From a virus, in the IMG/VR virus record IMGVR_UViG_3300046513_000257, positions 1 to 39,973 of that record: a stretch of DNA of 39,973 bases; one strand, 5' to 3'. The notes beneath the pieces were generated by a model. That model was not told where the DNA came from. It did no database searches and saw only the letters and a list, made by a program, of their open reading frames with translations. Below are positions 15,742 to 34,537 of this stretch, one piece after another. Made by a program: the position numbers and the translations under genes. How positions within the stretch are numbered: the first letter of the stretch is position 1; each line of letters opens with the position of its first letter.

Positions 15742-15774
15742 TAGTCGGGATTCCGACCGGCCGCCGCGCCGATA
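15742..15774 (+). promoter_or_regulatory. Repeated 18-bp element, copy A (candidate late promoter)
   Basis: TAGTCGGGATTCCGACCG (15742-15759) contains the dyad GTCGG-GATT-CCGAC. Six bases later GCGCCGATACT follows, similar to the sequence after the other copies. It sits 8 bp after the HTH gene stop and 76 bp before the first late gene. Confidence 0.55.
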
Positions 15775-15817
15775 CTCCGTGACGTTACCTTTGATCAACG
15801 TCATTCCGGAGTGAACC

Positions 15818-16261
15818 ATGACCAGAACCTCCCGCGTTACTGCCGTCCAGGTGCCAGGCGCCCAGCCGGCCGCCGAGCAGGCCACCACCAGCACCGCCGC
15901 CGCAGACCAGCAGCCGGACAACGGCGCAGCCGATGACCAGGGCGCCTCATCCGCGAGCGGAAAACCGGAAACGACCGAGCAGGCCACCACCAGCACCGAG
16001 TTCGACATCGAAGCCCTGCGCGCCCAGATTCGTGCCGAAGAGCAGGCCCGGGCCCGCGAGGAGCTGGCCAGCCAGATCGATGCGGCCGCCAGCCGGATCC
16101 AGGCCGCCAGCACCGTGACCGGCACGCCGGCCGCTGCCGCACCGCGCACCAGGGGCGACTACAAGGCCATGGGCGCCCACGAGGTCGACCCGACGACCCT
16201 GACCGCCCCGGTCATGACCCGCGATGGCTGGGTGTGCCCGGTCCCGCCGGAAAAGAAGTAA
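15818..16261 (+). CDS. First late gene product, low-complexity, unknown function
   Basis: The 147-residue protein is rich in Ala, Thr, Gln and Glu (residues 1-60 include two EQATTSTxF/A-type repeats), with a charged helix (about 65-100: EALRAQIRAEEQARAREELA) and a conserved-looking end, DYKAMGAHEVDPTTLTAPVM then TRDGWVCPVPPEKK. It precedes the portal gene cluster. Its disorder and helix recall scaffold-like or packaging accessory proteins, but a separate scaffold candidate exists downstream. Confidence 0.65.
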   Translation: MTRTSRVTAVQVPGAQPAAEQATTSTAAADQQPDNGAADDQGASSASGKPETTEQATTSTEFDIEALRAQIRAEEQARAREELASQIDAAASRIQAASTVTGTPAAAAPRTRGDYKAMGAHEVDPTTLTAPVMTRDGWVCPVPPEKK

Positions 16262-16299
16262 TCCCCATCACCACGATCAAGCACCGGAAGGAGGCTCCC

Positions 16300-16518
16300 A
16301 TGTGCGGAGGCAGCCCAGATTTACCAGCCGCGACAGACCCGACCGCCGAGCGCGAGCAAGCCGAGGCTGACGCCCAGGCCGCGGCCAACGCCAAATCGGC
16401 AGCGAACCGCCGCGCGAAGCGCAGCCAATCGCTGCTGGCGGCCGGCGCCCAGGGCTCGACCGGTGCCGTCGCGACCAGCAGCGTGCTGGCCACGGGCAAA
16501 GACAAGCTCGGAGGCTGA
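16300..16518 (+). CDS. Small virion-module protein upstream of the portal
   Basis: A 72-residue protein beginning MCGGSPDLPAATDPTAEREQ. Short MCGG-starting proteins, Ala/Glu-rich and helical, commonly occur just before portal genes in podovirus-type phages. GGAAGGAGG gives a strong ribosome-binding site for the ATG at 16300. Its N-terminal Cys is not in a lipobox. Exact role unknown; a minor head-tail component is possible. Confidence 0.7.
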   Translation: MCGGSPDLPAATDPTAEREQAEADAQAAANAKSAANRRAKRSQSLLAAGAQGSTGAVATSSVLATGKDKLGG

Positions 16519-16520
16519 CC

Positions 16521-18131
16521 ATGTCGCAAGAACTCGCAGCGCAGATCATGCGCAGGAAGGCGTCGCTCGAGCAGCTGCGCACGCCCCACGAACAGCTGTG
16601 GCGCGACTGCTTCGACTACTCGTTCCCCGAACGCGGCGACGGCTTCTATGGCGAGAAGAGCGATGCCGTCTCCCTGCAGGCCAAGCGCGCGCGGCTGATG
16701 GATTCGACCTCGACCGACTCGGGCCAGATCCTGGCGGCGGCCATCATGTCCGGCGGCACCCCCAGCAACTCCCGCTGGTTCGGCCTGTCCACCGGCCAGG
16801 ACACCGACGAGGAAAAGCGCTGGTTCGACGTGTGCGCCGAGACCATCTTCGAGAACATCCACGGCTCGAACTTCGACGCGGTCGGCTTCGAGGCCTGCAC
16901 CGACCTGGTCCCGGCCGGCTGGTTCGTGCTGTTCATCGACGTCGACCGCGAACAGGGCGGCTATCACTTCGACCTGTGGCCGCTGGCGTCGTGCTACATC
17001 GCCGCATCGAAGCCGGGCGGCCTGCCCGACACCCTGATCCGGTCGTACGAGCTGAGCGTCGAGCAGGCGGTCAAGGACTTCGGCGAGGCCAACCTCAGCG
17101 AGAAGGTACGCAAGCTGTTCAGCGAGGGCAAGGTGGACGAGAAGATCCGGTTCTGCCAGTCGATCTACCCGCGCAGCAGCCAGGCCAGCGGCGTGCGCGC
17201 CAAGAACCTGGCCTTCGCCTCGTGCCACGTCGAGGTCGACAGCAAGCAGATGGTGCGCGAATCCGGCTTCCACGAGTGCCCGTTCGTCGCGCCGCGCTGG
17301 TCCAAGCTACCCAACAGCGACTATGCGATCGGGCCGATGTTCCGCGCCCTGCCCGACGTCAAGCAGCTCAACCGCCTGGTCTACCTCGAGGACACCAACC
17401 TGGACATGGCCGTGTCGGGCATGTGGATTGCCGAGGACGACGGCGTGCTGAACCCGCGCACCGTCAAGGTCGGCCCGCGCAAGATCATCGTGGCCAACAG
17501 CGTCGACAGCATGAAGTCGCTGCAGAGCGGGGCCAAGTTCGACCTGTCGTTCACGAAGAAGGAGCAGCTGCAGGCCGCGATCCGCAAGACCCTGATGGCC
17601 GACCAGCTGGCTCCCCAGGACGGCCCGGTGCGCACGGCGACCGAGATCCACGTTCGCACGCAGATGATCCGCCAGCTGCTGGGCCCGATCTACGGCCGCA
17701 TGCAAGCCGAGTGGTACGCGCCGATGATCAACCGCTGCTTCGGCCTGGCGCTGCGCGCACCTGGTGTGCTGCCGCCGCCGCCGCAGTCGCTGGCCGGCCG
17801 CCAGTACAACGTGAAATTCGAATCGCCGAACGCCAAGGCCCAGAAGCTGGAAGAGGTCAACGCGGTCGAAACCTCGCTGGCGGCCGTCGGCCAGATCGCC
17901 GCAGCGACGCAGGACCCGAGCGTCTGGGACACGATCGATATCGAGGAGAGCGTCTCCGTCATCCTCGAGGGCCGCGGCGCGCCGGCGCGCGTCGGTCGGT
18001 CGAAGGAGGACATCCAGGCGATCCGCGAGAGCCGGGCCAAAGCCCAGCAGCAGGCGCAGCAGCAACAGCAGCAGGCTGACATGGCCCAGAAGATGGCGCC
18101 GCAGATGGCCAAGAACATGGCGCCAGCATGA
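16521..18131 (+). CDS. Portal protein, T7-type head-tail connector
   Basis: This 536-residue protein belongs to the head-to-tail connecting protein family of T7-like phages, forming the dodecameric ring through which DNA enters and leaves. Typical sections are the N-terminal helix SLEQLRTPHEQLWRDCFDYS (about 15-34), SGGTPSNSRWFGLS, the stem-core region with MFRALPDVKQLNRLVYLEDT, and RTATEIHVRTQMIRQLLGPI with YGRMQAEWYAPMINRCFGLA (about 373-418). A Gln-rich C-terminal tail (about 515-530) is seen. It follows its small leader gene by 2 bp and overlaps the next gene (ATGA). Confidence 0.93.
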   Translation: MSQELAAQIMRRKASLEQLRTPHEQLWRDCFDYSFPERGDGFYGEKSDAVSLQAKRARLMDSTSTDSGQILAAAIMSGGTPSNSRWFGLSTGQDTDEEKRWFDVCAETIFENIHGSNFDAVGFEACTDLVPAGWFVLFIDVDREQGGYHFDLWPLASCYIAASKPGGLPDTLIRSYELSVEQAVKDFGEANLSEKVRKLFSEGKVDEKIRFCQSIYPRSSQASGVRAKNLAFASCHVEVDSKQMVRESGFHECPFVAPRWSKLPNSDYAIGPMFRALPDVKQLNRLVYLEDTNLDMAVSGMWIAEDDGVLNPRTVKVGPRKIIVANSVDSMKSLQSGAKFDLSFTKKEQLQAAIRKTLMADQLAPQDGPVRTATEIHVRTQMIRQLLGPIYGRMQAEWYAPMINRCFGLALRAPGVLPPPPQSLAGRQYNVKFESPNAKAQKLEEVNAVETSLAAVGQIAAATQDPSVWDTIDIEESVSVILEGRGAPARVGRSKEDIQAIRESRAKAQQQAQQQQQQADMAQKMAPQMAKNMAPA

Positions 18132-18373
18132 GCCGAAACCAGTCCCACACCCCAGGCCCGCTGGAATACAAGGCCCTTTTCGAGGATGACGCGCGGGGCG
18201 TCGCCATTCTTGAGCACCTGACCCAGGCCTTTGCGCGCCCCGCCGTCGTCAAGGGCGGCATCGATGCGGTGCTCGAAACCTACCAGCGTGACGGCCAGCG
18301 CCGCGTGCTGGAATTCATCGTCAACCAGATCAACCGCGCCCACGGCGTGGACGTCAACAACCAGGAGGAATAG
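18128..18373 (+). CDS. Bbp19-like small phage protein
   Basis: The 81-residue product (containing YKALFEDDARGVAILEHLTQ, then FARPAVVKGGIDAVLETYQR and DGQRRVLEFIVNQINRA) resembles the small protein next to the portal gene in BPP-1-like phages (Bbp19 type): a short helical protein with an F..D..G..IL..L signature. The role is not established; placement between portal and scaffold suggests head assembly. Its ATG overlaps the portal stop. Confidence 0.65.
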   Translation: MSRNQSHTPGPLEYKALFEDDARGVAILEHLTQAFARPAVVKGGIDAVLETYQRDGQRRVLEFIVNQINRAHGVDVNNQEE

Positions 18374-18376
18374 AGC

Positions 18377-19255
18377 ATGTTCATCAAGCGGTTCATTCAA
18401 CGTTTCCGTTACATGGAGCAGGCCGGAGGGGATCCGGCCCCGGGCGGCGCACCAGCAACCCCGCCTGCGGAGCCAGCACCAGGCGCACCAGCTACGCCTG
18501 CCGCCCCGGCCACTCCGCCGGCGTCGGTGCTCGCCGGCGGCGGCGCGCCGGACGGGGCGCCCTCCACCGACTTCATCCCCGAGAAGCTGCGCGTCATGAA
18601 GGACGACGGCACCCTGGACATGGATGCCTCCTCGCGCAAGCTGGCCGAAGCCTACGGCAGCCTGGAAAAGCGCTTCGGCGCCGGCGATGTGCCGCCCAAG
18701 GAGGCGAGCGAGTACAAGATCACCGTGCCCGACGCATTCAAGGAAGCGTTCGACCCTGCCACCGACAAGGGCATGCAGGGCTTCCTGTCCGCCGCCCTGG
18801 CCGAAGGCATGACCCAGAAGCAGGTCGACCTCGTCATGGCCAAGTATTTCGAGATGGCCCCGCAGCTCGTCGCCGGCGCCGCCCAATATGACGCCAACAC
18901 CGCCACCGCTGAACTGAAAAAAACATGGGCCACCGACGCAGATTTCAACCGCAATGTCCGAAACGCCTACGTCGGTACCAACGCCGCCGCGCAAAAAGCC
19001 GGCCTGGACGTCGCCGAAATTATGAACGGGTCACTCGGTAACAACCCGCAGTTCCTGCGCCTGATGGCCGCTCTGGGACCGGAGTTCCAGGAAGACCCGG
19101 GCGCCGGCGGCGCGAGCATGGTCACTCAGGACGACGTCAATACGCTGATGGCATCCGAGGCTTACACGAACCCGCGCCACCCTGAACACGCGAAGGTGAG
19201 CGCGAAGATCCAGCAGTACTTCAACCGCAAGTACGGCACCGAGGCCGCGGCCTGA
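18377..19255 (+). CDS. Capsid scaffolding protein
   Basis: The 292-residue protein lies between portal and capsid genes as T7 gene 9 does. It has a Pro/Ala-rich linker (about 17-60), then FIPEKLRVMKDDGTLDMDAS (a motif of T7-type capsid assembly proteins), a helical body (SRKLAEAYGSLEKRFGAGDV; GFLSAALAEGMTQKQVDLVM) and a C-terminal region, MVTQDDVNTLMASEAYTNPR, with KVSAKIQQYFNRKYG, the usual capsid-contacting end. GAGGAA precedes the ATG. An intrinsic terminator follows 21 bp after the stop. Confidence 0.82.
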   Translation: MFIKRFIQRFRYMEQAGGDPAPGGAPATPPAEPAPGAPATPAAPATPPASVLAGGGAPDGAPSTDFIPEKLRVMKDDGTLDMDASSRKLAEAYGSLEKRFGAGDVPPKEASEYKITVPDAFKEAFDPATDKGMQGFLSAALAEGMTQKQVDLVMAKYFEMAPQLVAGAAQYDANTATAELKKTWATDADFNRNVRNAYVGTNAAAQKAGLDVAEIMNGSLGNNPQFLRLMAALGPEFQEDPGAGGASMVTQDDVNTLMASEAYTNPRHPEHAKVSAKIQQYFNRKYGTEAAA

Positions 19256-19276
19256 CCGTTCCCATCACCCCTACCA

Positions 19277-19301
19277 GGCCCGCCAGCACGCGGGCCTTTT
19301 T
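19277..19301 (+). terminator. Intrinsic terminator after the scaffold gene
   Basis: GGCCCGC (19277-19283), a 6-nt loop and GCGGGCC (19290-19296) give a perfect 7-bp GC stem followed by TTTTT. Transcription stopping here implies that the capsid gene needs a further promoter, consistent with the repeated element 16 bp downstream. Confidence 0.9.
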
Positions 19302-19316
19302 CATTCCCCGCGCAAA

Positions 19317-19351
19317 TAGTCGGGATTCCGACCGCCCATCAGCGCAATCAT
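19317..19351 (+). promoter_or_regulatory. Repeated 18-bp element, copy B (candidate late promoter)
   Basis: TAGTCGGGATTCCGACCG at 19317-19334, identical to copies A and C. Seven bases later GCGCAATCATT follows, nearly the same as at copy C. It lies between the terminator and the major capsid gene, 175 bp before that ATG. The rest of this 236-bp gap shows no gene. Confidence 0.6.
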
Positions 19352-19491
19352 TGCCAGCAATCAAGGCCTGCGGTGGCGCGCAGACAACCTTCAAGCCCGC
19401 AGCCTTCGCATAACAGCCGATGCGATGGTCGTAACACAGGCCCGGTGACGGACAACCTGAAGGCGACTTCCTCACCTTTTGGAGATACAAC

Positions 19492-20358
19492 ATGCCCGCT
19501 TCAATCACCCAAGCTTTCGTCCAGCAGTTCGACACCACGATCCGGCTGCAAGCACAGCAAAAGACCTCGCGCTTCGAGTCGCGCGTCACCGACCGTGGCA
19601 CGATCACCGGCGAATCGTTCACCGCCAATAAGCTCGGCACGATCGAGGACACCCCGGAAAACACCGTGCGCCACGGCGACACCGTGTGGGGCGACATGAC
19701 CCACTCGACCCGCGTGGCCCTCATGCGCGACTTCTACCAGGCCCTGCCGGTCGACCGCGCTGATGAGCCGAAGGTGCTGGCCAACCCGAACGGCGACTAC
19801 ATGAGCTCGCTGCTCGCCGCCTGGAACCGTCGCAAGGACGGCATCATCTACGCCGCCGGCCTGGGCAACTCGCAGACGAAGGACGGCTCGCTGATCGCGC
19901 TGCCGGCCGGCCAGAAGATCGTGGCCGGCGGCACCGGATTCACCAAGGCCAAGCTGATCACGTCCAAGAAGATCTTCCGTGCCAACGAGTGCGACGACCA
20001 AGCCGACGATCCGCAGGAGCTGTACATCACCTACACCTCGGAAATGCTCGAGGACATCCTGGCCGACACCACACTGACCAGCGCCGACTTCCTGGCCGTG
20101 CGCATGCTTCAGGACGGCAACGTCGCCGGCAAGTGGATGGGCTACAACTGGGTGCCGTACGAGAAAGTCAACAACGTCGCCGGCACCTACAGCGCGATGG
20201 CCTGGGCGAAGAAGGCAATCCACTTCGGCACCGGCTTCTTCGAAGGCAAGAGCCAACGCCGCGGCGACAAGAAGGACACGATGCAGGTGTCGGCGGCCGG
20301 TTCGGTCGGCGCCGTGCGTGTCTGGGAAGACGCTGTGGTCCAGATCGACTTCGTCTAA
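19492..20358 (+). CDS. Major capsid protein
   Basis: The 288-residue product begins MPASITQAFVQQFDTTIRLQ and is followed by a small decoration candidate, like the MCP/cement pair of BPP-1. It lacks a protease or delta domain at the N-terminus, consistent with a separate scaffold protein. Segments ANPNGDYMSSLLAAWNRRKD and NVAGKWMGYNWVPYEKVNNV fit the phage capsid family of BPP-1-like podoviruses (HK97 fold). TTGGAG lies ahead of the ATG. It may be transcribed independently of the portal-scaffold block because a terminator and the 18-bp element lie between them. Confidence 0.87.
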   Translation: MPASITQAFVQQFDTTIRLQAQQKTSRFESRVTDRGTITGESFTANKLGTIEDTPENTVRHGDTVWGDMTHSTRVALMRDFYQALPVDRADEPKVLANPNGDYMSSLLAAWNRRKDGIIYAAGLGNSQTKDGSLIALPAGQKIVAGGTGFTKAKLITSKKIFRANECDDQADDPQELYITYTSEMLEDILADTTLTSADFLAVRMLQDGNVAGKWMGYNWVPYEKVNNVAGTYSAMAWAKKAIHFGTGFFEGKSQRRGDKKDTMQVSAAGSVGAVRVWEDAVVQIDFV

Positions 20359-20393
20359 TCAACGCATCCACCTCAATCTCATAGGAGCCAATC

Positions 20394-20849
20394 ATGGCTG
20401 AAACCAACACCACCCAAGCGGCCAAGCTGGTCGCGAGGACCAAGCTGCTGCCGCACGAGTCCCATGGCCGCGTGCGCGGCTTGAACGCGAAGATGCCGGC
20501 CGCCTTCGCGCAGATGGCGATCAACGACACCATCTTCATCGGCCGCATCCCGGCCGGCGCGCGCATCCTGGGCGACGGTATCGTCAGCTGCGGCGCCGGT
20601 ACCGCGACCTGCACCCTCGACATCGGCCTGCGCGAGACCGCGACCGGCACCGTCCTGAACGCCACCGGCCTGGCCACCGGCGTCGACGTGGCGGCCGCCG
20701 GCATCAAGCCGATCGCCAACGGCGCCTATATCACCGCCGGCGCCGAGTACGTCACCCTGGTCGAGTGCGATGTCTACGCCACCGTCAAGACCGCCGTGCT
20801 CGCGGCGAACCAGGCGCTCAAGTTCGAGATTCCCTACCAGGCCGACTGA
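20394..20849 (+). CDS. Probable capsid cement/decoration protein
   Basis: The 151-residue product has a helical start (TQAAKLVARTKLLPHESHGR) and a beta-rich body with alternating Gly, Thr and Ala (IPAGARILGDGIVSCGAGTA; TLDIGLRETATGTVLNATGL), typical of jelly-roll decoration or minor capsid proteins. In BPP-1 the equivalent position next to the capsid gene is held by the cementing protein Bbp16. The assignment rests on position and composition. A strong terminator follows 37 bp after its stop. Confidence 0.7.
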   Translation: MAETNTTQAAKLVARTKLLPHESHGRVRGLNAKMPAAFAQMAINDTIFIGRIPAGARILGDGIVSCGAGTATCTLDIGLRETATGTVLNATGLATGVDVAAAGIKPIANGAYITAGAEYVTLVECDVYATVKTAVLAANQALKFEIPYQAD

Positions 20850-20886
20850 CCTGCAACCGTTGTCTCCTACCCCTCGGGGTATTTCG

Positions 20887-20911
20887 CCGGGGCCTTGTGC
20901 CCCGGTTTTTT
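20887..20911 (+). terminator. Intrinsic terminator after the capsid/cement genes
   Basis: CCGGGGC (20887-20893), CTTGT loop and GCCCCGG (20899-20905) form a perfect stem followed by TTTTTT. The next gene starts at 20926, so either read-through or an unseen promoter supplies the tail genes. Partial termination after the capsid gene, giving excess capsid transcript, is known in T7. Confidence 0.9.
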
Positions 20912-20925
20912 CTTGAAGGGCCGAT

Positions 20926-21492
20926 ATGTCCAGCTCCGTTTCAATCTGCTCCAACGCGCTTGTGATGCTCGGCGGCGCGCCGTTCAGTTCCTTCGATGAG
21001 GCGAAGCCGCACGTGCGCATCGCCGCCAACCTCTACCCGAGCGTGCGTGACGACGTGCTGCGGCTGCACAGCTGGAACTGCGCGACCGACCGCGTGATGC
21101 TCGCGCCGATGGCGAACCCGCCAGCCTTCGATTTCGCGTACCAGTTCCAGCTGCCTGGCGACTGGCTGCGCACGCTGCAAGTGGGGAGCAAGGGCGATCC
21201 GCTCGAGTACCGCATGGAACGCCAGCGGATCCTGGCCAACGTGACCGTCCTGCCGCTGGTCTACTGCTTCCGCAACACGGTGGAGGACACCTGGACGACC
21301 AACCTGATCCATGTGATGGAGCTGGCCATGGCCGCCAAGATGGCGTATGCCGTGACCTCCTCGACCTCGGTTCGCGACAGCTATCGCGACGAATTCGCGC
21401 GCGAGTTCAAGGTGGCCAAGGCCATCGACGGCCAGGACGATCCGCCGGAAGAGTTCGAAGTCGGCACGTTCGTTGAATCCCGTTTCGCGTAG
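20926..21492 (+). CDS. Tail tubular protein A-like (gp11 type)
   Basis: The 188-residue protein matches the T7 gp11 family, the ring attached below the portal. Visible family features: SICSNALVMLGGAPFSSFDE at the start (ALxxLGxxPI-type), a YPSVRDDVLRLHSWNCATDR segment (about 38-57; the R...L..H.WNFA pattern), FAYQFQLPGDWLRTLQV, and the VHVMELAMAAKMAY-like helix near 127-140. It directly precedes the nozzle gene, as in T7. Confidence 0.88.
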   Translation: MSSSVSICSNALVMLGGAPFSSFDEAKPHVRIAANLYPSVRDDVLRLHSWNCATDRVMLAPMANPPAFDFAYQFQLPGDWLRTLQVGSKGDPLEYRMERQRILANVTVLPLVYCFRNTVEDTWTTNLIHVMELAMAAKMAYAVTSSTSVRDSYRDEFAREFKVAKAIDGQDDPPEEFEVGTFVESRFA

Positions 21493-21500
21493 GAGCCAGC

Positions 21501-23726
21501 ATGCCGCGCGTCACCATCAACCAAACCAACTTTACGGCCGGTGAGATATCGCCGAAGTGCTACGGCCGTGTCGACGTCACGCGCTACCAGAACGGCGCGG
21601 CCGCGATGCCAAATTGCGTGATCGACATCCACGGCGGTGCCGGCCGCCGGCCAGGGAAAGCTTTCGTGGCCGAGACAAAGGATTCCTCGAAGCGCTCGCG
21701 CCTGGTGCCCTACATCTTCAGCACCACCCAGGCTTACATACTGGAATTCGGCCACCTCTACATGTGGGTGTACGTGCAGAGCGGCGGCCAGGTCGTCAGC
21801 GGCGGCGTGCCTTACGAGATCGTCACGCCCTACACCGAGGACATGCTGGCCGAGATGGACTTCACCCAGGGCGCCGACACCATGTTCATTTTTCACCGCA
21901 GCTTGCCGATCCATATCCTGCAGCGTGTCGCTTCCGACTACTGGGCGCTCAGGCAGGCGCCGATCACGGTGGCGCCGTTCGATGAGATCGGCCATATGTT
22001 CGCGGCGACGTTGACGCTCTCGAATGCGGCAGTCGGCACTGGCCGCACCGCCACCGCCTCGACTGCCATCTTTCTCGCTGCCGACGTCGGGCGCCGCATC
22101 ACATACCTGTCGGGCACGGCCCTGATCACCGGCTTCACCAGCGGCACCGGCGTCACGGTCGACATCGAGAGCGCCTTCCCCGTGGCAGCGCTGCCCGCCA
22201 GCGCCTGGGAACTGCTGGACTCCCCCCAGGTCGGAATTACGCCATCGGCAAAAAGCCCAGTGGGCGCGGCGTGCACGCTGTCCGCCGGAACGCAAGTTCC
22301 TATCGATCCGGAGAATCCTGACGCCGGCACCACCGGTGGAACGGACGCCTGGCGCGCCGGCGATGTCGGGAAGTTCGTTCGCCTCAACGGCGGAATGGTG
22401 CAGATCACCAGCTTTACCGACGCCCAGCATGTGCAGGCCGTCATCAAGGAAGAATTGGCCGCGGTTGTCGAAGCGCCGGCTAGCGCCTGGACGCTGGAAG
22501 CCCCGGTCTGGAACAGCACCTATGGCTACCCCTGCACCGGCGCGCTGTACGAGCAGCGGCTTGCGGTGGCCGGCTCGCCCCGCTACCCGCAAACGGTCTG
22601 GGGCAGCCGGTCGGGCCTGTTCTACGACTTCACGATCGGCACCAATGACGACGACGCGTTCAGTTTCGCGCTTCCCTCCACCGGCCAGATCAACCCGATC
22701 CAGCGCATGGCGACCGCCAAGGCGCTGATGCCACTGACCTACGGTGGCGAATACACAATGGAAGGCGGCAGTGACGAAGCGCTGACCCCCACCAGCGTCA
22801 AGGCGCGCAGCCCATCGGTCTACGGCTGCAACCAGGTCAAGCCGCTCCGGATTGGCAACGAGGTGCTGTTCGTGCAGCGTGCCGGCCGCAAGGTCCGCTC
22901 ACTGGCCTACAGCATCTCGACGGACACCTACAACGCGCCTGACCTGACCGTGCTGGCCGAGCACATCACCACCTCCGGCATTGTCGACATGGCCTACCAG
23001 CAGGAGCCCGGCTCGCGGCTCTGGTGCGTGCGCGCGGACGGCAAGCTGGCCACGCTGACCCTCGATCGCGACGAAGGCGTCATCGCCTGGACGCCCCAGA
23101 ACACGGACGGCCTGTACGAATCCTGCGCCACGATCCCGAATGCCGAGGGCGACGAGGTGTGGTGCATCGTCCAGCGGACCATCGACGGCCAGGTCAAACG
23201 CTACGTCGAACGCTTCGACCAGACCTTTTACACCGACTGCGCCATCACCGGCACCGACGAAACGGGCAAGGCCACCTGGACCGGGATCGATCACCTGGAA
23301 GGCAAGGACGTGGCGGTGCGGGCCGACGGCGTGTACATGGGCATGTTCACCGTTGCCGACGGCGCAATCCAGCTGCCGCGCGATGCCCTGGCCGTCGAGA
23401 TCGGCCTGCCGTTCACCAACAGCGTCACGCTGCTCAGGCCAGAAGTCCAGGCTGGCGACGGCACCAGCCAGGGCAACGCGCAGCGCGTGCACGAAGTCTC
23501 GCTGTTGCTGGCCGACACCATCGGGGCCAAGATCAACGGCGAGGAGATCGCTTTCCGCGAGTTCGGCGGCAACCTGCTCGACAGCGCACCCGAGGCGTAC
23601 TCGGGATTCAAGCGCGCCGGCCTGACCGAGTGGTCGCGGGGCGACGAGACGATCACGATCAGCCAGGACGAGCCCTACCCCTTCCACCTTCTTGCGGTCG
23701 TGCGCAAGATCACCATCAACAGCTGA
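21501..23726 (+). CDS. Tail tubular protein B-like nozzle protein (gp12 type)
   Basis: This 741-residue protein begins MPRVTINQTNFTAGEISPKC and continues YGRVDVTRYQNGAAAMPNCV, then HGGAGRRPGKAFV, the standard opening of T7 gp12-like and BPP-1-like nozzle proteins (FxxGElSP..yGR.D...Y..a...n.....G...RRpGt.fv). A central region of about residues 165-330 is Thr/Gly/Ala-rich and beta-forming, and a later section includes YNAPDLTVLAEHITTSGIVD and MAYQQEPGSRLWCVRADGKL, typical of the propeller-like part. It would form the tail tip channel that opens on adsorption. Confidence 0.88.
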   Translation: MPRVTINQTNFTAGEISPKCYGRVDVTRYQNGAAAMPNCVIDIHGGAGRRPGKAFVAETKDSSKRSRLVPYIFSTTQAYILEFGHLYMWVYVQSGGQVVSGGVPYEIVTPYTEDMLAEMDFTQGADTMFIFHRSLPIHILQRVASDYWALRQAPITVAPFDEIGHMFAATLTLSNAAVGTGRTATASTAIFLAADVGRRITYLSGTALITGFTSGTGVTVDIESAFPVAALPASAWELLDSPQVGITPSAKSPVGAACTLSAGTQVPIDPENPDAGTTGGTDAWRAGDVGKFVRLNGGMVQITSFTDAQHVQAVIKEELAAVVEAPASAWTLEAPVWNSTYGYPCTGALYEQRLAVAGSPRYPQTVWGSRSGLFYDFTIGTNDDDAFSFALPSTGQINPIQRMATAKALMPLTYGGEYTMEGGSDEALTPTSVKARSPSVYGCNQVKPLRIGNEVLFVQRAGRKVRSLAYSISTDTYNAPDLTVLAEHITTSGIVDMAYQQEPGSRLWCVRADGKLATLTLDRDEGVIAWTPQNTDGLYESCATIPNAEGDEVWCIVQRTIDGQVKRYVERFDQTFYTDCAITGTDETGKATWTGIDHLEGKDVAVRADGVYMGMFTVADGAIQLPRDALAVEIGLPFTNSVTLLRPEVQAGDGTSQGNAQRVHEVSLLLADTIGAKINGEEIAFREFGGNLLDSAPEAYSGFKRAGLTEWSRGDETITISQDEPYPFHLLAVVRKITINS

Positions 23727-23733
23727 GGAAACC

Positions 23734-24192
23734 ATGGGAATTCGAGTAGCAACACTGGACGATCTGCCGCGCATCCTCGAGCTGGGCGAGCAGCTGCACC
23801 GCGAGAGCCCGCGCTGGTCGCGGCTGTCCTTCAGCCGCGCGAAGGCCGAGCAATTCCTCACCCACCTTATCCAGGAGCCCAACGGCGTGGTGTTCGTCGC
23901 CGACCAGCAGGGCGTGGTCGTCGGCGGCATCGCCGGCATGGCGGCGCCTCACTGGTCCAGTGACGACATCGTGGCCCAGGAGGTGAGCTTCTTCATGGCG
24001 CCGGAAGCGCGCGGCAACATCGTGGCGGTACGGCTGATCTGTGCGCTGCGGGCCTGGGCAGAGCTGCGCGGCGCGAAATGGCTGCATGCCGGTACGTCGA
24101 CCGGGATCGACCCGGAACGCACGGCACGGCTTTATGAAGCACTGGGGTTCGCCCGGTGCGCAATTGGGCTGGAGGTGACCTATGGCGCATGA
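23734..24192 (+). CDS. GNAT-family N-acetyltransferase (first of two)
   Basis: The 152-residue product starts MGIRVATLDDLPRILELGEQ, the usual GNAT N-terminal strand-helix. The acetyl-CoA-binding turn is in FFMAPEARGNIVAVRLICAL (about 90-109; the RGxG/A-type loop is RGNIVA, slightly degenerate), and the family end is seen in ERTARLYEALGFARC. It lies between the nozzle and internal virion genes. The target may be a virion or host protein. Start 23734 is preferred over one at 23692 that overlaps the nozzle gene. It overlaps the second GNAT by 11 bp. Confidence 0.85.
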   Translation: MGIRVATLDDLPRILELGEQLHRESPRWSRLSFSRAKAEQFLTHLIQEPNGVVFVADQQGVVVGGIAGMAAPHWSSDDIVAQEVSFFMAPEARGNIVAVRLICALRAWAELRGAKWLHAGTSTGIDPERTARLYEALGFARCAIGLEVTYGA

Positions 24193-24649
24193 CCTGCTCA
24201 CGGTGGCGCGCACCACGATCGATGAAATGGAAGTCGATCCCGATCTCGGCGCCTTGCTGGCGGAATACGCTGCCGAATCTGCAAATCATGAAATCGGCCC
24301 GGCTTCGCCGCAGATTCATACCTATCGAACGATGGAGGCTGCGGGCCTGTTTCATGCGCTCGCTGCTCGTTGCGGCGGTCGGTTGGTGGGATTCCTGTTC
24401 TTGCTGGTGCCGAACCTGCCGCACTTTGGGCGGGTCGTCGGCGTCACCGAGTCGTATTTCGTTGCGGCGGACCATCGCAAGTCCGGCGCCGGCACCATGC
24501 TGCGCCAAGAAGCCGAGCGCCTGGCCGCCTCGCTGGGAGCTGTTGGCCTCATGATCAGCGCGCCGACGGACGGCAAGCTGGCCGACGTGCTCGATGCGCA
24601 CAAGGCATACCGGGAAACCAGCCGCGTGTTCTTCCGGAGGCTGGCATGA
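24182..24649 (+). CDS. GNAT-family N-acetyltransferase (second of two)
   Basis: The 155-residue product has an N-terminal helical extension (LLTVARTTIDEMEVDPDLGA), then the acetyltransferase core: RLVGFLFLLVPNLPHFGRVV, ESYFVAADHRKSGAGTMLRQ (about 90-109, with a good RKSGAG acetyl-CoA loop), and a C-terminal end, HKAYRETSRVFFRRLA. It differs clearly in sequence from the first GNAT, so it is not a recent duplicate. Both overlap neighbours and share the late operon. Confidence 0.83.
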   Translation: MAHDLLTVARTTIDEMEVDPDLGALLAEYAAESANHEIGPASPQIHTYRTMEAAGLFHALAARCGGRLVGFLFLLVPNLPHFGRVVGVTESYFVAADHRKSGAGTMLRQEAERLAASLGAVGLMISAPTDGKLADVLDAHKAYRETSRVFFRRLA

Positions 24650-25110: not shown

Positions 25111-25113
25111 CCT

Positions 25114-27581: not shown

Positions 27582-29854
27582 TGGCAATCGATGACCTGTT
27601 CCAGAACGGCACCGACAAGGTACTGGACGACCGCGTGGCCCGTCCACTTCCCTCCCCGATCCCGCAGCGCTCCTTCGGTGCCAACCTGTGGGGCTTGACC
27701 TCCGCTGCGCCGAAGGGTGGCGCTGCCGGCGTGGCCGAATCGGGCGGCTTCTTCGCGGATATCCTCGGGGCCTATGGCGAGGTGCAGGCTGGCTACGGCG
27801 CCCAGCTTGACCCGTCCCTTGCGCTCAGCACCAAGACGGCGGAAGCGACCCGTGCTGCTGGTGCGGGCGCCAGGGCGCGCCTCGACAGCGGCGAAGCTTT
27901 CAGCACCGAGATCGGTAACAGCCTGCGCGCCACCGCGCGCAGCATGGCCCCGGATCCACAAGCCGCCGGCACTGCGGAGCAGTTGTTGTTCGGGCTGGGC
28001 CGCTTCGCCACCAAAGCCGTTGGTTATACCCTGGCCGGCGGTCCGATACCGGGCGCGGTCATGCTGGGCGCCGACGAAGGCATGACCGAAGCAGACCGCC
28101 TCAAGGCCCAGGGCGTCGACTTCGAGACCCGCACCAAGGTGGGCGCCGTCGCTGGCGCGGTGGCCGGGGTGTCGGTGGCCCTGCCGGTGGCCGGCAAGAC
28201 CCTGGCGCAGACCGCCGGACTGGTTGCCGTCGGCGGCCCGGGCGGATTCATCGCGCAGCAAGCGGCCACCAAGGCAATCTTGGAGAACGCCAAGTACGAC
28301 AAGCTGGCGGACCAGTACGACCCGTTCGACCCGGTCGGCCTGGCCGTCTCCACCCTGGTGCCTGCCGGCTTCGGTGCCTTCGCCCTGCGCGGTTCGAAAG
28401 CCCGGGCACCTGCGCTCGTGGATCCGGCCGCAGCGCGCGAGCTGGGTATCATGGGCGCGAACGAGCGCCTGGCCCTGCGCTACGACGACCCGCGCCTGGA
28501 TGCCTACGCGGTGACCGCAGCGCAGCGTGAGGGAATCCCGCCCGAGGCGCTGCTGGCCATCAAGAACGCCGGTGAGCGATCCGGCCCGCGCGCTGTGTCA
28601 CCGAAGGGCGCCAAGGGCGTCATGCAGTTCATGGACGACATCTGGACCGCGTACGGCAAGGGTGACGCGCGCGACCCGGTCGCATCGATCGACGCGGGCG
28701 CGCGCTTCATGAAGGACCTGATCAAGCAGTACGACGGCGACGTGCGCGCCGCGCTCGCGCACTACAACGGCGGCGGGAAAGCCGGCCAGGCCGTGCGCGA
28801 AGGCAGGATGCCGGCGGCGAAGGAAACGCGGGACTACCTGGCGCGCACGGAACAGTTCATGGCCGAGCGCAGCGGCACCGAGGCCGGACGGGCGGCGGCG
28901 AGCGATCCGGACATGGTTGCAGCAGCCCGGGTCCAACAGGTGCGCGACACCGTCGAATCGTGGAACCTGCGCGACCCGGCCGACGCTGCCGCCGCCGAGC
29001 AGCACCTGAATGCCGTCCTGCGCGCCGCCGACCAGCTCGGGGCCGGCGAGCGGGTCGACATCGGCAGCACCGTCCCTCTCGACACGCTCGGCCAGGCCCG
29101 TCTGCTCGACAACCTGGTCGGACGCCTCGAGCAGTCCCGCGCCGAGCTGCTGCCGGAAGCCGGCAACCTGGTCGACCCCGGCGTGGTCGCGCCGCTGCGG
29201 GCGGAGATCAGCCGGCTCGAGCAATCGCGCCCGGCGGCCACCGACGAAGCACTGCGCACGCTGGCCAAGGAAATCCAGGCTGCCCAGAGCGTCAGCTACA
29301 AGGCCGCGCTCTCGGCGGCAAAAAAGGACATCGGTACCCGGCTGGACGGCATCGATGCGCAGATCGGGCGCCTGCGTCAGCAGCTGGACGCCCACCGCGC
29401 CGCGGCCGAGACCCAGAAGCAGATCGCCCACCTGGATAGTCAGATCGCCCGAATTAAGTCGGAGCGCGCCGAGATCGCCAGCCCGACGCCGCGCCCGGCA
29501 GCGCTGGCGGTCAAGCAGGCGATGGCCGACATGGGCGGTTCGAAACCGGGGAAACCCGCAACGATCCGCGAGGCCACCGCAACAAAAGCCCCAGAAAGCG
29601 CAACGGAACCGGCGGCCGCTGCACCTGCAGCACCTGCCGGGAAGCAGAGCGCGAACCCGATTGCCGCGTCGCTGGAAGCCCAGAGTGCAGAAATCGCGAA
29701 GCTGTCGCCTGACATGATGGTCCAGCTGGAAGGGATGGATGCCCCGATGCGCCTGGCAGATGCGCTGGAGGCAGTGAAGGCGGAAGCGGCGCGCGACGTG
29801 CAGGATGCGCCGCTGCTGCAGGTGGCCGCCGAGTGTTTCCTACGAAGCGCCTAA
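27581..29854 (+). CDS. Ejection protein with lytic transglycosylase (SLT) domain
   Basis: The 757-residue protein carries an SLT-type transglycosylase domain at about residues 300-400: GIPPEALLAIKNAGERSGPR (catalytic Glu about 332), AVSPKGAKGVMQFMDDIW, then YNGGGKAG. This is the enzyme that locally opens peptidoglycan during DNA entry, as T7 gp16 does, though in T7 the domain is at the very N-terminus. Regions with hydrophobic Gly/Ala segments (about 145-240) could insert into membranes. The C-terminal 350 residues are coiled-coil-like. The end, LLQVAAECFLRSA, is directly followed by the only notable gap in the virion operon. Confidence 0.87.
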   Translation: MAIDDLFQNGTDKVLDDRVARPLPSPIPQRSFGANLWGLTSAAPKGGAAGVAESGGFFADILGAYGEVQAGYGAQLDPSLALSTKTAEATRAAGAGARARLDSGEAFSTEIGNSLRATARSMAPDPQAAGTAEQLLFGLGRFATKAVGYTLAGGPIPGAVMLGADEGMTEADRLKAQGVDFETRTKVGAVAGAVAGVSVALPVAGKTLAQTAGLVAVGGPGGFIAQQAATKAILENAKYDKLADQYDPFDPVGLAVSTLVPAGFGAFALRGSKARAPALVDPAAARELGIMGANERLALRYDDPRLDAYAVTAAQREGIPPEALLAIKNAGERSGPRAVSPKGAKGVMQFMDDIWTAYGKGDARDPVASIDAGARFMKDLIKQYDGDVRAALAHYNGGGKAGQAVREGRMPAAKETRDYLARTEQFMAERSGTEAGRAAASDPDMVAAARVQQVRDTVESWNLRDPADAAAAEQHLNAVLRAADQLGAGERVDIGSTVPLDTLGQARLLDNLVGRLEQSRAELLPEAGNLVDPGVVAPLRAEISRLEQSRPAATDEALRTLAKEIQAAQSVSYKAALSAAKKDIGTRLDGIDAQIGRLRQQLDAHRAAAETQKQIAHLDSQIARIKSERAEIASPTPRPAALAVKQAMADMGGSKPGKPATIREATATKAPESATEPAAAAPAAPAGKQSANPIAASLEAQSAEIAKLSPDMMVQLEGMDAPMRLADALEAVKAEAARDVQDAPLLQVAAECFLRSA

Positions 29855-30037
29855 GGAGGATATCCAGTAGATGCCGGCGAAGACCAGACCAGCGCCGGTG
29901 AGGCAACCCATGATCTTCAGGTAGGCCACGAACGCCTGCAGACCATCGCGCCAGCTGCCGGAGCCGGCCCAGACCGACAGCGGAATGATCAGGGTCATCC
30001 CGAAGATAACACCAACAGTTATGAGGAAAGTGAGCAT
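29840..30037 (-). CDS. Antisense small two-helix membrane protein
   Basis: A 65-residue frame on the minus strand, MLTFLITVGVIFGMTLIIPL then SVWAGSGSWRDGLQAFVAYL and KIMGCLTGAGLVFAGIYWIS, has two clear hydrophobic helices (about 2-24 and 34-60) joined by a short polar loop. It fills the 189-bp gap between two late genes, overlapping only the last 15 bp of the upstream one. No strong ribosome-binding site or promoter is seen. Composition strongly favours real coding over chance, but expression is unproven. It could be a lysogen-expressed membrane protein or an exclusion factor. Confidence 0.55.
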   Translation of the reverse strand: MLTFLITVGVIFGMTLIIPLSVWAGSGSWRDGLQAFVAYLKIMGCLTGAGLVFAGIYWISSLGAS

Positions 30038-30043
30038 TTCTAC

Positions 30044-32536
30044 ATGAAACCACAGTGCAGACAAGCTGTCCAGCAGGCCGCCGGCCGGGCTTTGACCGAT
30101 GCTGAAGTCAAGAAGATCGACGACCGGATCAGCGCCACGATGCGCAACATGGCCCGGGCGGATCCCGCCGGCTGGCGCGCCAAGTCCGCCGACCAGCGCG
30201 TGATGGACGCCACCCAGCAGGCGATGGCCGATATCCAGGCCGAGGCGGCGCTCAAGGTGCAGCGCGCCCAGGTGCAGATCGTCAAGACTGCGGCGATGGA
30301 GACCCGGGTCGGGGACCTGATGGCGTCCTACGCGATCGGCCGCAGCAAGGCCCTGGTCAAGGAAATGGAGCTGACCCACAACTATGCCGAGGGGATCAAG
30401 CGCGAGACCATGGGCCACCTGATGGACCTGCTCGACGCCGTCGAGAGCACCCAGGGCACCACCACCGGCCGCAAGGCGCTGATGTTCCTGTTCGACGCGC
30501 AGAACCCGGGCATGACCCGTGACCTGGCGATCGAGATCTACGCCAACGGCGCCGGCGGCACCGGCAACGCCCTGGCCCAGAAGGCGGCGACGGCATGGCT
30601 GGAATCGATCGAGCAGCTGCGCCAGCGCTTCAACGGCGCCGGCGGCGACGTCGGCCGGCTGGATTACGGCTACCTGCCGCAGCCGCACGACCAGGCGCGG
30701 GTGCGCGGCAGCGGCGAGCCCGGCCCGCGCGACAAGTGGGTGCAGGAGACGCTGCCGCTGCTCGACCGCAACCGCTACTTCCAGGAAGACGGCACCCGCC
30801 TGACCGACCAGCAGCTGGCCGGCGTGCTGGAATCGGCATGGGAAACCATCGCCACCGGCGGCTTGAGCAAGATGACGCCCGGGCAAGGTGGCGGCAGCGG
30901 CGCGCGTGCGAACGCCGGCAGCGAGTCGCGCCAGATCCACTTCAAGGACGCCGAATCCTACCTCGTCTACATGCGCAAGTACGGCGGCGGCAGCATGTAC
31001 GACGCGATGCTGGGCCACATCGGCGGCATGGCGCGCGATATCGCCCTGGTCGAGCGCTACGGCCCGAACCCTGCGCAGCAGATGAAGCTGCAGTTCGACC
31101 TGGCCAAGCAGGCCGATGTCGGCCTCAAGCGCTCGTTCGGCATGACGCCACAGAGCTACTGGGACCTGATCAGCGGGAAGACCGGCATGGCCGAGAACGG
31201 CAACATCGCCCAGATCTCGCAGGACCTGCGCAACATCCAGGTGTTCGGCAAGCTGGCCGGCGCGGTGCTGTCGAGCGTGACCGACATGGGCACCTACTTC
31301 GTGACGACCGGCTTCAACAAGCTGTCGTACTGGGAGGCGATCAAGAACATCGGCAAGCAGTTCGACGGTGACACCCGCGACTTCCTGACCATGCACGGGG
31401 TCATTGCCGAATCGATGGTATCGAACCTGAACCGCTGGAGCGGCGACAACATCAAGAACACCTGGAGCGGGCGCCTGGCCAATTCGACCATGAAGCTGTC
31501 CCTGATGAACGCCTGGACCGACACGCTGCGCCGCGCCTTCTCCATGACGATGATGAACGGGCTGGCGCGGATGTCGAAGTCGGAGTGGTCGGCGCTGTCG
31601 GAGTGGGACCGCACGCATCTGGTCCGCAAGGGCATCACCGAGGCCGACTGGGACGTCATCCGCGCCGGCCAGCTCACCCAGTACTCGGGCGCCGACTTCC
31701 TCACCCCGGAGGCGATCCACGCCAGCGGCCACGCGCGCGCCAACGAGGTGGTTGCCAAGGTGCTCGGCCTGATCACCGACGAATCGGAATATGCGGTGCT
31801 CAATCCGGATCTCGCCACCAAGGCGACCGCCAGCGCCGGCGGCATCTCGCGCGGCACCGTGCGCGGCGAGCTGGCCCGCTCCGTCATGCAGTTCAAGAGC
31901 TTCCCGATTGCCATGATCTCTCGCCACTGGCGCCGCATGCTGGACGCCCCGTCCGTTGACGGCGCGCCGATGCTGGCCAACCGGCTGATGTACGGCGCGG
32001 CCATGATGACCTCCCTCACCGCGCTGGGGGCGGTCGCCTTCCAGACCAAGCAGCTCGTGCAGGGCAAGGACCCGATCGACATGACAACGCCGAAGTTCTG
32101 GACCAGGGCCATGGCACAGGGTGGCGGCATGGGCATCGTCGGCGACTTCCTGTTGACCGACCCGACCGAGAACCCGGGCGACGCCACCGCCAACGCGATC
32201 AAGAACGTGGCCGGTCCGACCGTCGGCAGTGCGTTCGACATCGGCTACAAGCTGGGCGTGGAGAACATCTACGAGGCCGCCAACGACAAGGACACGCACT
32301 TCGCCGCCGAAAGCATCCGCACCGCGCGCAGCCACCTGCCCTACGTGAATCTCTGGTACGCCAAGGCGGCACTTGACCACGCCGGCCTCCATGCTTTGCA
32401 AGAGAGTGTCAGTCCGGGGTATCTTTCGAGAATGCAACAACGCGCGCGCCGCGACTGGAACCAGGATTACTGGTGGAACCCGGGCACGGGGGCGCCGGAC
32501 CGTGCGCCGGACATGACAGCGATTGGAGGGAACTGA
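30044..32536 (+). CDS. Large internal virion/ejection protein
   Basis: The 830-residue protein starts MKPQCRQAVQQAAGRALTDA and contains long helical regions with a hydrophobic, possibly membrane-active section near residues 635-720 (FPIAMISRHWRRMLDAPSVD; MYGAAMMTSLTALGAVAFQT; GGGMGIVGDFLLTDP). This C-terminal part resembles the corresponding region of large DNA-ejection proteins in BPP-1-like and T7-like phages. With the transglycosylase gene it may correspond to a T7 gp16-type function split in two, which is an inference. No catalytic motif recognised. Confidence 0.75.
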   Translation: MKPQCRQAVQQAAGRALTDAEVKKIDDRISATMRNMARADPAGWRAKSADQRVMDATQQAMADIQAEAALKVQRAQVQIVKTAAMETRVGDLMASYAIGRSKALVKEMELTHNYAEGIKRETMGHLMDLLDAVESTQGTTTGRKALMFLFDAQNPGMTRDLAIEIYANGAGGTGNALAQKAATAWLESIEQLRQRFNGAGGDVGRLDYGYLPQPHDQARVRGSGEPGPRDKWVQETLPLLDRNRYFQEDGTRLTDQQLAGVLESAWETIATGGLSKMTPGQGGGSGARANAGSESRQIHFKDAESYLVYMRKYGGGSMYDAMLGHIGGMARDIALVERYGPNPAQQMKLQFDLAKQADVGLKRSFGMTPQSYWDLISGKTGMAENGNIAQISQDLRNIQVFGKLAGAVLSSVTDMGTYFVTTGFNKLSYWEAIKNIGKQFDGDTRDFLTMHGVIAESMVSNLNRWSGDNIKNTWSGRLANSTMKLSLMNAWTDTLRRAFSMTMMNGLARMSKSEWSALSEWDRTHLVRKGITEADWDVIRAGQLTQYSGADFLTPEAIHASGHARANEVVAKVLGLITDESEYAVLNPDLATKATASAGGISRGTVRGELARSVMQFKSFPIAMISRHWRRMLDAPSVDGAPMLANRLMYGAAMMTSLTALGAVAFQTKQLVQGKDPIDMTTPKFWTRAMAQGGGMGIVGDFLLTDPTENPGDATANAIKNVAGPTVGSAFDIGYKLGVENIYEAANDKDTHFAAESIRTARSHLPYVNLWYAKAALDHAGLHALQESVSPGYLSRMQQRARRDWNQDYWWNPGTGAPDRAPDMTAIGGN

Positions 32537-32907
32537 TGCGGCAAGACCAATACGAGAAATTGCAGGAGCTGACCGAGAAGCTGACGGACGCCTTCATCGG
32601 TGAGGCGGATCCGGCCGTGTGGCCCGGTCACGGCGTGGCGATCGCCGCGATGGACCAGCAAACCCGGGGCGACCGCTACTGGTGCAAGAAAAACGCCGCA
32701 GCGACCCTGTCCGTGATCGTTCGGACCACAAACCTGATCGGCATCATCCAGATGCGCGGCGCTGGCGGCGGTGCCGGCGGCGTGCCGCCCGCTGAACAGG
32801 CCCAGGAGGACAACAGCCTTGACGCCGAAATGAAGGCAGCGGAGAAGGAAGCCACCAGGTTGCTCGACCAGCTGCAAAAAGGCACGACGAAAGCCCATGG
32901 AAAATAA
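32536..32907 (+). CDS. Candidate terminase small subunit
   Basis: The 123-residue product, MRQDQYEKLQELTEKLTDAF, continues with DRYWCKKNAAATLSVIVRTT, a Gly-rich linker and a charged helix at the end (SLDAEMKAAEKEATRLLDQL). It immediately precedes and overlaps (11 bp) the large terminase gene, as T7 gene 18 does with gene 19. The small size, helices and C-terminal coiled-coil fit a DNA-recognition subunit, but no HTH is evident, so the assignment is positional. The ATG at 32536 overlaps the preceding TGA. Confidence 0.62.
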   Translation: MRQDQYEKLQELTEKLTDAFIGEADPAVWPGHGVAIAAMDQQTRGDRYWCKKNAAATLSVIVRTTNLIGIIQMRGAGGGAGGVPPAEQAQEDNSLDAEMKAAEKEATRLLDQLQKGTTKAHGK

Positions 32908-34537
32908 GGTCAGCTTCCTGGCGTTCTTCGTGATGTGGGCGAAGGTGCAGGGGTGGACTGTTCCCCTGCTCCACGTCCGGATTTGCCAGTGGCTGGAGAA
33001 CTGCTCTGATCCGGTGCGGGTGCTGATGGTGTTCCGCGGCGCGGCGAAGTCGACTATCTATGCGGTGTACAAGGCCTGGCAGCTGTACCGCGATCCGACT
33101 TGGGTATCGCTGATCTGGGCGGCCGACGGCCCGCTGGCTACGAAGCTGACGCGCGACACCATCAACGTGCTGCGGCGCCACCCGCTGTGTGCCGGCATGC
33201 TGCCGACGAAGCCCGGTGCGCAGATGTTCTGGGTGGCCGGCGCCACCGATGCCCGTAACGCCAGCATGACCGCAACCGGCGTGAACCAGAACGTGACCAG
33301 CGCGCGCGCCCGGGACATCGATTACGACGACGTCGAGGTGCCGAAGAACATCAAGACCGCCGACGCGCGCGAGAACCTGCGCAACAAGATTCAGGAATCG
33401 ACCTTTATTCTGGTGCCGGGTGGGCGCGAGACGTACATCGGGACCCCGCACACCCACAACTCGATCTATCCAGAGCAGGTGGCCGCCGGCGCCGCCCTGC
33501 TGAAAATCCCGCTGTTCGAATCGAGCGTGCGCTACGAGGAGACCGACAAGCGCACGCGCTACAGCTTCGACTTCACGCCCGGCGCCGACGGCCTGTACGT
33601 CATGCTGGGCATCCACCGGTTTTCCCGACTGCTGGTCGAGGGTACCGATTACCGGGTGGAAGGCAACGAGGTGGTATTCACCAGCCCGCCGGGCGTGGTG
33701 GTCGACATCTATGCGCACTGCGCCTGGCCCGAGCGCTTCACCCGCGAGGACATCGCCAAGCGGCGCAAGAAGACCCGCACCCTCAACTACTGGGACAGTC
33801 AATACATGCTGGAAGCGAAGCCTATCAACGAGTGCCGCCTCGACCCCGCCAAGATCAAGGCCTACGACGTGCAGCCGGCGATCGAGAACGCCAACCGCCA
33901 GGTGCGCATGATGCTGGGGAACGTCCAGATCGTAAGCGGCCGCGGCTACTGGGACCCGTCCCTGGGCAAGGCCGGCGGCGACGCTTCCGCCTTCTCCGTC
34001 ATCTACGACGACAGCCTGGGCAACCACTACTGGCATGTGTGCGAGGGCCTGACCGGGGAATTCGCCGAGTTCAGCGACGCCAGGAACACCGAAATCATCA
34101 GCGGCCAGGTGCTGCAGGCCTGCGACCTGATCGAGAAAGCCAACATCCTGCACGTGTATGTCGAGACCAACAGCGTCGGCTCGTTCGTCGGCAAGCTGCT
34201 GATGCGCGCGATCAAGCAGCGCCGCCTGCAGTGCGGCGTGACGGAGATCGTCACGAACGCCAACAAGAACGAGCGCATCCTCGGCGCGCTGGAGGCGCCC
34301 ATGAAGTCGGGCGTGCTGTGGGCGCACGTCGACGTCCTGGACGGCCCGCTGTGGGACCAGATGAAGGACTGGAACCCGGCCGTGAAGAGCCAGCCCGACG
34401 ACTACCTGGACAGCGGCGCCGGGGCAATCGAGCAGGCGCCAGTCCGCATCAACCATTTAGTCGGGATTCCGACCGGCAACGTGCGCAAAGATTGGCGCCA
34501 TTCAACGGGCGTCTTCGAGGTGACGCTCGAAACCTGA
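32897..34537 (+). CDS. terL: Terminase large subunit (ATPase/nuclease)
   Basis: The 546-residue packaging motor protein has a Walker A-like loop, MVFRGAAKST (about 44-53; divergent, as in T7-type terminases), Walker B DYDDVE (about 142-147), and a C-terminal RNase H-like nuclease: YWDPSLGKAGGDASAFSVIY (D353), YVETNSVGS (E423) and DDYLDS (about 501-506). A region at about 228-275 (GADGLYVMLGIHRFSRLLVE; GTDYRVEGNEVVFTSPPGVV) is an unusual beta-rich insertion between the two domains. The last residues include the third copy of the 18-bp element within the coding sequence. Confidence 0.93.
   Translation: MENKVSFLAFFVMWAKVQGWTVPLLHVRICQWLENCSDPVRVLMVFRGAAKSTIYAVYKAWQLYRDPTWVSLIWAADGPLATKLTRDTINVLRRHPLCAGMLPTKPGAQMFWVAGATDARNASMTATGVNQNVTSARARDIDYDDVEVPKNIKTADARENLRNKIQESTFILVPGGRETYIGTPHTHNSIYPEQVAAGAALLKIPLFESSVRYEETDKRTRYSFDFTPGADGLYVMLGIHRFSRLLVEGTDYRVEGNEVVFTSPPGVVVDIYAHCAWPERFTREDIAKRRKKTRTLNYWDSQYMLEAKPINECRLDPAKIKAYDVQPAIENANRQVRMMLGNVQIVSGRGYWDPSLGKAGGDASAFSVIYDDSLGNHYWHVCEGLTGEFAEFSDARNTEIISGQVLQACDLIEKANILHVYVETNSVGSFVGKLLMRAIKQRRLQCGVTEIVTNANKNERILGALEAPMKSGVLWAHVDVLDGPLWDQMKDWNPAVKSQPDDYLDSGAGAIEQAPVRINHLVGIPTGNVRKDWRHSTGVFEVTLET
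34458..34492 (+). promoter_or_regulatory. Repeated 18-bp element, copy C (inside the terL 3' end)
   Basis: TAGTCGGGATTCCGACCG at 34458-34475, followed after seven bases by GCGCAAAGATT. It codes for part of LVGIPTG using the TTA leucine codon, rare in such GC-rich DNA, suggesting constraint on the nucleotides. It lies 119 bp before the tail-fibre start. Confidence 0.55.

Follow-up and report, generated by a model that had tools for sequence, protein, structure and literature searches.

The binding sites of the phage late activators P2 Ogr and Mu C lie clearly upstream of the -35 position, and the site of lambda CII, a TTGC-N6-TTGC direct repeat, spans the -35 region. At the MotA/AsiA middle promoters of T4, the activator box, located near -30, stands in for the -35 element and is combined with an ordinary -10 (PMC6755090). 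In the leaders of the T4 genes e, soc, 49 and I-TevI, a stem masks the ribosome-binding site (RBS); its 5′ strand is located in the late-promoter region and is missing from the late RNAs (PMC3014915). Temperate podoviruses with T7-like virions and no detectable RNA polymerase need a means of timing their late genes, and the switch described here is a concrete candidate, with a named regulator, an operator, predicted starts and a second, translational lock. On comparative evidence, three identical 18-mers in one such prophage are control sites of late promoters, very probably bound by the helix-turn-helix (HTH) protein encoded next to the first of them. No description of the 18-mer, TAGTCGGGATTCCGACCG, or of a late activator of these phages was found in the literature searched, and the Yersinia phage papers that were searched make no mention of promoters.

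The window, i.e., the whole stretch of 39,973 nucleotides that was analyzed, is an IMG/VR virus record and holds a prophage sitting in the 3′ end of a tmRNA gene. A 28-bp direct repeat, GGTTCGATTCCCTCCGCCTCCACCAGTA, is found at 1497-1524 and 39624-39651. The two copies are the probable attL and attR at this insertion site, which gives a prophage of approximately 38 kb. It carries a T7-like virion module, including a head-tail connector (PF12236), a capsid protein (PF19821) and a relative of the T7-like terminase, and it codes for a CI-like repressor with an S24 domain at 10388-11128. Two acetyltransferase-like open reading frames (ORFs) are located at 23692-24649, inside the tail/internal virion block, and a relative of the first is present in all compared phages. 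An OafA-like membrane acyltransferase gene (37976-39100), identified from its sequence only, adjoins the putative attR and is found in a minority of relatives; it might possibly be O-antigen-modifying cargo. The features of the putative switch are as follows.

15435 to 15734, plus strand: gene for a 99-residue HTH protein of predicted Cro/C1 type, the proposed late activator (PHROGs phrog_17493, phrog_16553)
15742 to 15759, plus strand: operator copy A, an imperfect palindrome of 18 bp, with the first late gene 58 bp further on
15818 to 37807, plus strand: late block proposed to be served by the promoters, with portal, scaffold, capsid, tail, internal virion, terS, terL, fibre and lysis genes (PHROGs/Pfam)
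19276 to 19297, plus strand: terminator-like hairpin with a T tail (8-pair stem, 7 G-C), which would insulate promoter B
19317 to 19334, plus strand: operator copy B, exact 18-mer, upstream of the capsid gene (19492-20358)
34458 to 34475, plus strand: operator copy C, exact 18-mer, within the 3′ end of terL and upstream of the tail-fibre gene (34577-36475)

Searching both strands of the whole window yielded three exact plus-strand copies of TAGTCGGGATTCCGACCG, at 15742, 19317 and 34458. No further match with up to three mismatches was detected on either strand (shuffle mean, 0.04), in agreement with the original prediction that the three copies are identical, confined to the late strand and without any other. 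TAGTCGGGATTCCGACCG is the sole 18-mer with three occurrences in the window, for a composition model expectation of 7e-7 copies. The rarity of the TTA codon in copy C, also claimed from the sequence, was borne out by codon counts: of the 470 Leu codons in late genes, 4 are TTA, and terL has a single TTA codon, which overlaps copy C. The terminator proposed to precede the capsid-gene copy corresponds to the hairpin at 19276-19297, which heads the list of terminator candidates in the window and is followed by copy B 19 bp downstream. The total number of candidates in that scan was no higher than in shuffled sequences.

We then looked at relatives. IMG/VR contigs contained at least 50 stretches with exact TAGTCGGGATTCCGACCG, versus none with the reversed 18-mer, and the GC content of the contigs with matches ranged from 43 to 67%. 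With a relaxed pattern, copies were found in all 41 records searched, with three to six in most of the near-complete ones. In related prophages they precede the first late gene, the capsid gene, terS, the tail fibre (at the end of terL) and the holin gene. Allowing up to two mismatches, we found 95 sites in 23 records (fetched loci together with YeP4 and the window), and every one was on the late strand; that set includes two probable chance matches inside genes. The Yersinia phage YeP4, an annotated relative, is an induced temperate podovirus (PMC6548840). It has five variant copies, of which four precede the first late gene, the capsid gene, terS and the gene in the holin position and one is at the end of terL, and its capsid-gene copy directly follows a terminator-like T-run. 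De novo repeat finding with 16-mers over whole genomes was swamped by codon repeats, yet it recovered the YeP4 sites.

To define the anatomy of the promoters, 41 nonredundant sites were aligned, of which 39 remained after the two chance matches were dropped. Downstream of the dyad, the only strongly conserved columns are an A at +13 and a T at +17. A preference for A/T is also seen upstream; it is weaker and reaches its maximum 3 bases before the dyad. A hexamer nAnnnT is found at a spacing of 11 nt after the dyad in 37 of the 39 sites (p of approximately 4e-46), the next best offset being shared by six sites only, and the remaining two sites have the same hexamer at a spacing of 10. These p-values are optimistic, as sites from related phages are not independent. 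Positions 2 (A) and 6 (T) are the most critical ones of a sigma-70 -10 element. If the hexamer is taken as -12 to -7, the center of the dyad falls at about -32.5, where a -35 element would be located. The corresponding hexamers in the window are the following; their spacing is read from the sequence, and the starts are inferred.

15771 to 15776, plus strand: -10 hexamer GATACT of promoter A (nAnnnT, 11-nt spacing), predicted start at about 15783
19346 to 19351, plus strand: -10 hexamer AATCAT of promoter B (nAnnnT, 11-nt spacing), predicted start at about 19358
34487 to 34492, plus strand: -10 hexamer AAAGAT of promoter C (nAnnnT, 11-nt spacing), predicted start at about 34499

A scan with the sigma-70 consensus detected no promoter at the window sites. 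No -35 hexamer is recognizable at the sites, and the -10s are poor, with a T at the first position in about one quarter of them, so that the promoters look activator dependent. Each late unit has the shared operator at a fixed distance from a -10, as one of the criteria for a late activator requires. A further downstream element had been predicted, GCGC at 6 to 7 bases after the dyad. Copies A, B and C indeed all have it, but relatives do not conserve it; the downstream element that they do conserve is the nAnnnT hexamer, and GCGC was rejected as a general feature.

The 35-base pattern combining the operator and the -10 was used to scan 84,980 bacterial and archaeal genomes and matched 12 stretches in eight genomes. 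Ten of them, in six genomes, belong to such prophages or have the same site context. Many host copies unrelated to phage genes would have refuted the original prediction, and this did not occur, since nearly all of the stretches are in such prophages. A Roseateles match (L113, 7110-7127) has the operator and a GACAGT -10 after a terminator-like hairpin, and the N terminus encoded by the gene that follows resembles that of the first late gene product; no member of the HTH family was found in this 8-kb locus. The match in a Desulfobulbaceae genome may be due to chance.

The HTH ORF (15435-15734) ends 7 bp before copy A, and its gene is the only nonvirion gene of the window common to all 18 complete motif genomes. 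An HTH homologue is found just upstream of the first site, or overlapping it, in 22 of the 23 motif records; the sole record without one starts 76 bp before its first site. To avoid circularity, we also gathered loci by the HTH protein alone, without using the motif. As the 12-HTH profile was too diverse for a scan of the collection, three narrower HTH alignments were used. Among the recruited loci with enough sequence, 97 of 103 have a site (up to two mismatches) with its -10 within 800 nt downstream. The other six have no recognizable consensus site: four have altered palindromes, L212 ends early, and none was found in L137. In G001, G014, G021 and G036 (L068-L087), the first operator lies within the HTH gene itself, at the 3′ end of its reading frame. 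The association of gene and site is seen with either starting point. All the comparative tests that were made agree with the original proposal of a phage-specific late promoter or activator site read by the neighboring HTH protein, which is supported. Binding remains an inference in the absence of RNA, binding or mutant data.

The 99-residue protein has no Pfam HTH match above the cutoff, and a PDB sequence search returned weak HTH matches only. Its AlphaFold model is helical, with a core pLDDT of about 90, and the best Foldseek matches are the XRE proteins CapH, SinR, DdrO and C.AhdI, with probabilities of about 1 and weak E values (0.045 or worse). No MotA/AsiA-type match was obtained in the libraries used, a direct homologue search not being part of the analysis. 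Relatives of the protein are labelled "transcriptional repressor" in PHROGs and for gp01 of BcepC6B, and we saw no basis for this label. An HMM match (E value, 1.8e-13) places BcepC6B gp01 (L294, 176-478) in the same HTH family, and it may have a role in late regulation. Neither in BcepC6B (gp01) nor in L137 was a palindrome with a -10 detected near the HTH gene.

Some divergent HTH proteins are paired with altered palindromes, the spacing of nAnnnT being unchanged. Such palindromes were identified in L138 and L136 and also in L142/L143 and L131, where a further copy is located close to the capsid position in each case. The altered palindrome CGGGCGGGATTCCGCCCA has its second copy 3.9 kb on and TAGTCGAGATTTCGACCG 4.6 kb on; TAGCCAAGATTTCGGCTA and TAGCCCAAATCTGGTCTA are single, and their HTH proteins share the recognition-helix sequence PRS[ST]LQ[SN]Y. 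L136 and L138 have one recognized operator per locus, just after the divergent HTH gene, and the next gene after it in L138 resembles that of a terminase small subunit. In Acinetobacter and Alcaligenes sister phages, terL is about 40% identical, the HTH protein has diverged, and the 18-mer is absent. By reading their gene-start regions by eye, we found another operator, CACMCAACAAACC, at the corresponding gene heads (L055, L057, L059, L225-L292). The hexamer nAnnnT lies 18 nt after CAACAAA in 26 of 32 nonredundant sites (p = 3e-23). A hairpin over the RBS is often present at these promoters.

Between the -10 and the start, the sequence can often base pair with the RBS of the next gene. At copy A, ACTCCG...GACGTT (15774-15786) can pair with AACGTC...CGGAGT (15797-15812).

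15774 to 15812, plus strand: masking stem of copy A, with its 5′ arm (15774-15786) over the -10/start and its 3′ arm (15797-15812) covering the Shine-Dalgarno (SD) sequence GGAG, upstream of the ATG at 15818

The arms of this stem are conserved in relatives. In RNA folding, the SD of copy A was unpaired with a value of 0.00 in the read-through RNA, versus 0.53 in the late-promoter RNA. Over 39 nonredundant sites, pairing exceeded that of shuffled sequences (combined p = 4e-17), and 20 sites had p values below 0.05. For the holin, enteric capsid, terS, fibre and beta-type first-gene classes, a promoter paired significantly better with the start of its own gene than with starts taken from other classes, and no such preference was detected for the beta-type capsid class, to which copy B belongs, or for most enteric first-gene sites. 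The stem is absent or weak at copies B and C of the window and at most enteric first-gene sites. In one enteric capsid leader, arms more than 100 nt apart match perfectly over 12 bases (AACAATCACTCC/GGAGTGATTGTT), and in L201 the arms AATTGCGTCTC/GAGACGCAATT pair with different letters. Wherever the 5′ arm of such a stem is formed by the -10/start region, good translation would be expected only of RNAs whose synthesis begins at the late promoter. This second lock is less certain than the promoter, because the starts are assumed from the distance to the -10 and because sites in relatives are not independent of one another; the pairing potential is read from the sequences, and its effect on translation is inferred.

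Other explanations of the dyads need to be considered. The HTH protein might be a repressor, with the dyads covering the -35 region to keep the late promoters shut. Its family is annotated as such, the best fold matches, with weak E values, are XRE proteins, and a site over -35 can serve repression. However, promoters with no recognizable -35 and poor -10s look activator dependent, the HTH gene comes last in the early operon, the place expected for a late activator, and a CI-like S24 repressor (10388-11128) is present. Activation rather than repression is an inference; a repressor role is possible but seems improbable to us. The 18-mer might instead act as RNA, in the form of a GUCGG-GAUU-CCGAC hairpin that functions in processing or in antitermination of the nut/put type. 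Five base pairs closing a 4-nt loop can form and the sites are early in the transcription units, but frequent variants break the stem without compensation: A6 faces C13 in about 10 of 41 sites, and A16 faces G3 in 4. In addition, the -10 is downstream of the dyad, which would be missing from transcripts of these promoters, and at copy B the 19 bp between the terminator stem and copy B are too few for another promoter. We regard this RNA-based explanation as very improbable.

Repeated promoters of 18 to 23 bp are typical of T7-like phages, and the T7-like virion genes of the prophage raise the possibility of a T7-type promoter for a single-subunit phage RNA polymerase. None of the window's large late ORFs matched an RNA polymerase and no such gene is annotated in YeP4, while a sigma-type -10 at a fixed spacing is not part of T7 promoters, which leaves this possibility barely tenable. 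The same can be said of a recombination, packaging or replication signal, the first two of which were entertained as an alternative in the original prediction. The repeat is palindromic and one copy is within terL, but three to six copies at gene heads, in a fixed orientation, with a -10 downstream and in co-divergence with an HTH regulator, give that alternative no support, and att is elsewhere, at the 28-bp repeat (1497 and 39624).

We therefore consider it highly likely that the dyad is an HTH dimer-bound operator of activator-dependent sigma-70 late promoters, and we propose, with less certainty, that a second lock is added to it. According to this model, the 18-bp dyad would take the place of the -35 element in promoters of the host sigma-70 RNA polymerase, with a weak nAnnnT -10 placed 11 nt after it. 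A dimer of the 99-residue HTH protein would bind the dyad and recruit RNA polymerase, the phage encoding no recognizable polymerase of its own. Three late units would be served, namely, the head-assembly operon, the block from the capsid gene onward and the fibre/lysis block. At many of these promoters, including that of copy A, the -10/start region would be the 5′ arm that masks the RBS, and read-through RNA from upstream would be poorly translated, whereas RNA from the late promoter would lack the masking arm.

The same layout recurs in related phages of many bacteria. We are inclined, with some reserve, to see in them a family of two-lock late switches, in which one HTH protein controls several late promoters, codes have co-diversified (GTCGG, GGCGG, GTCGA, TAGCC and CACMCAACAAACC), and the -10/start serves as an anti-RBS arm. 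If so, late genes would not be well translated from RNAs entering from early promoters. The natural HTH/operator pairs could be used to learn a recognition code and might provide compact orthogonal promoter-activator pairs, and the late promoters of many unannotated prophages could be called from sequence.

The proposed switch would work like those of phage late activators, but its protein family, its operator and their combination are different. As for P2 Ogr and Mu C, a small phage DNA-binding protein is proposed to activate several late promoters via a repeated dyad that precedes the -10; the protein belongs to another family, and the dyad is near -32.5 rather than clearly upstream of -35. 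In that placement, deduced from the -10 spacing, it resembles the T4 MotA box in replacing the -35 element, although the MotA box is single, the window dyad is a palindrome, the HTH protein is unrelated, and no counterpart of AsiA was identified. Like the lambda CII site it lies over -35, but it is an inverted repeat and is linked to late rather than lysogeny genes. BcepC6B gp01 and PHROGs 16553 and 17493 represent the same protein family by profile match, under a repressor label. Lastly, copy A and several late-gene classes in relatives match the leaders of the T4 gene e type in the position of the 5′ arm, whereas copies B and C do not. The arrangement differs from that of T4 in being predicted for several late-gene classes, in temperate podoviruses, and at HTH-linked promoters, with a translational effect that is inferred.
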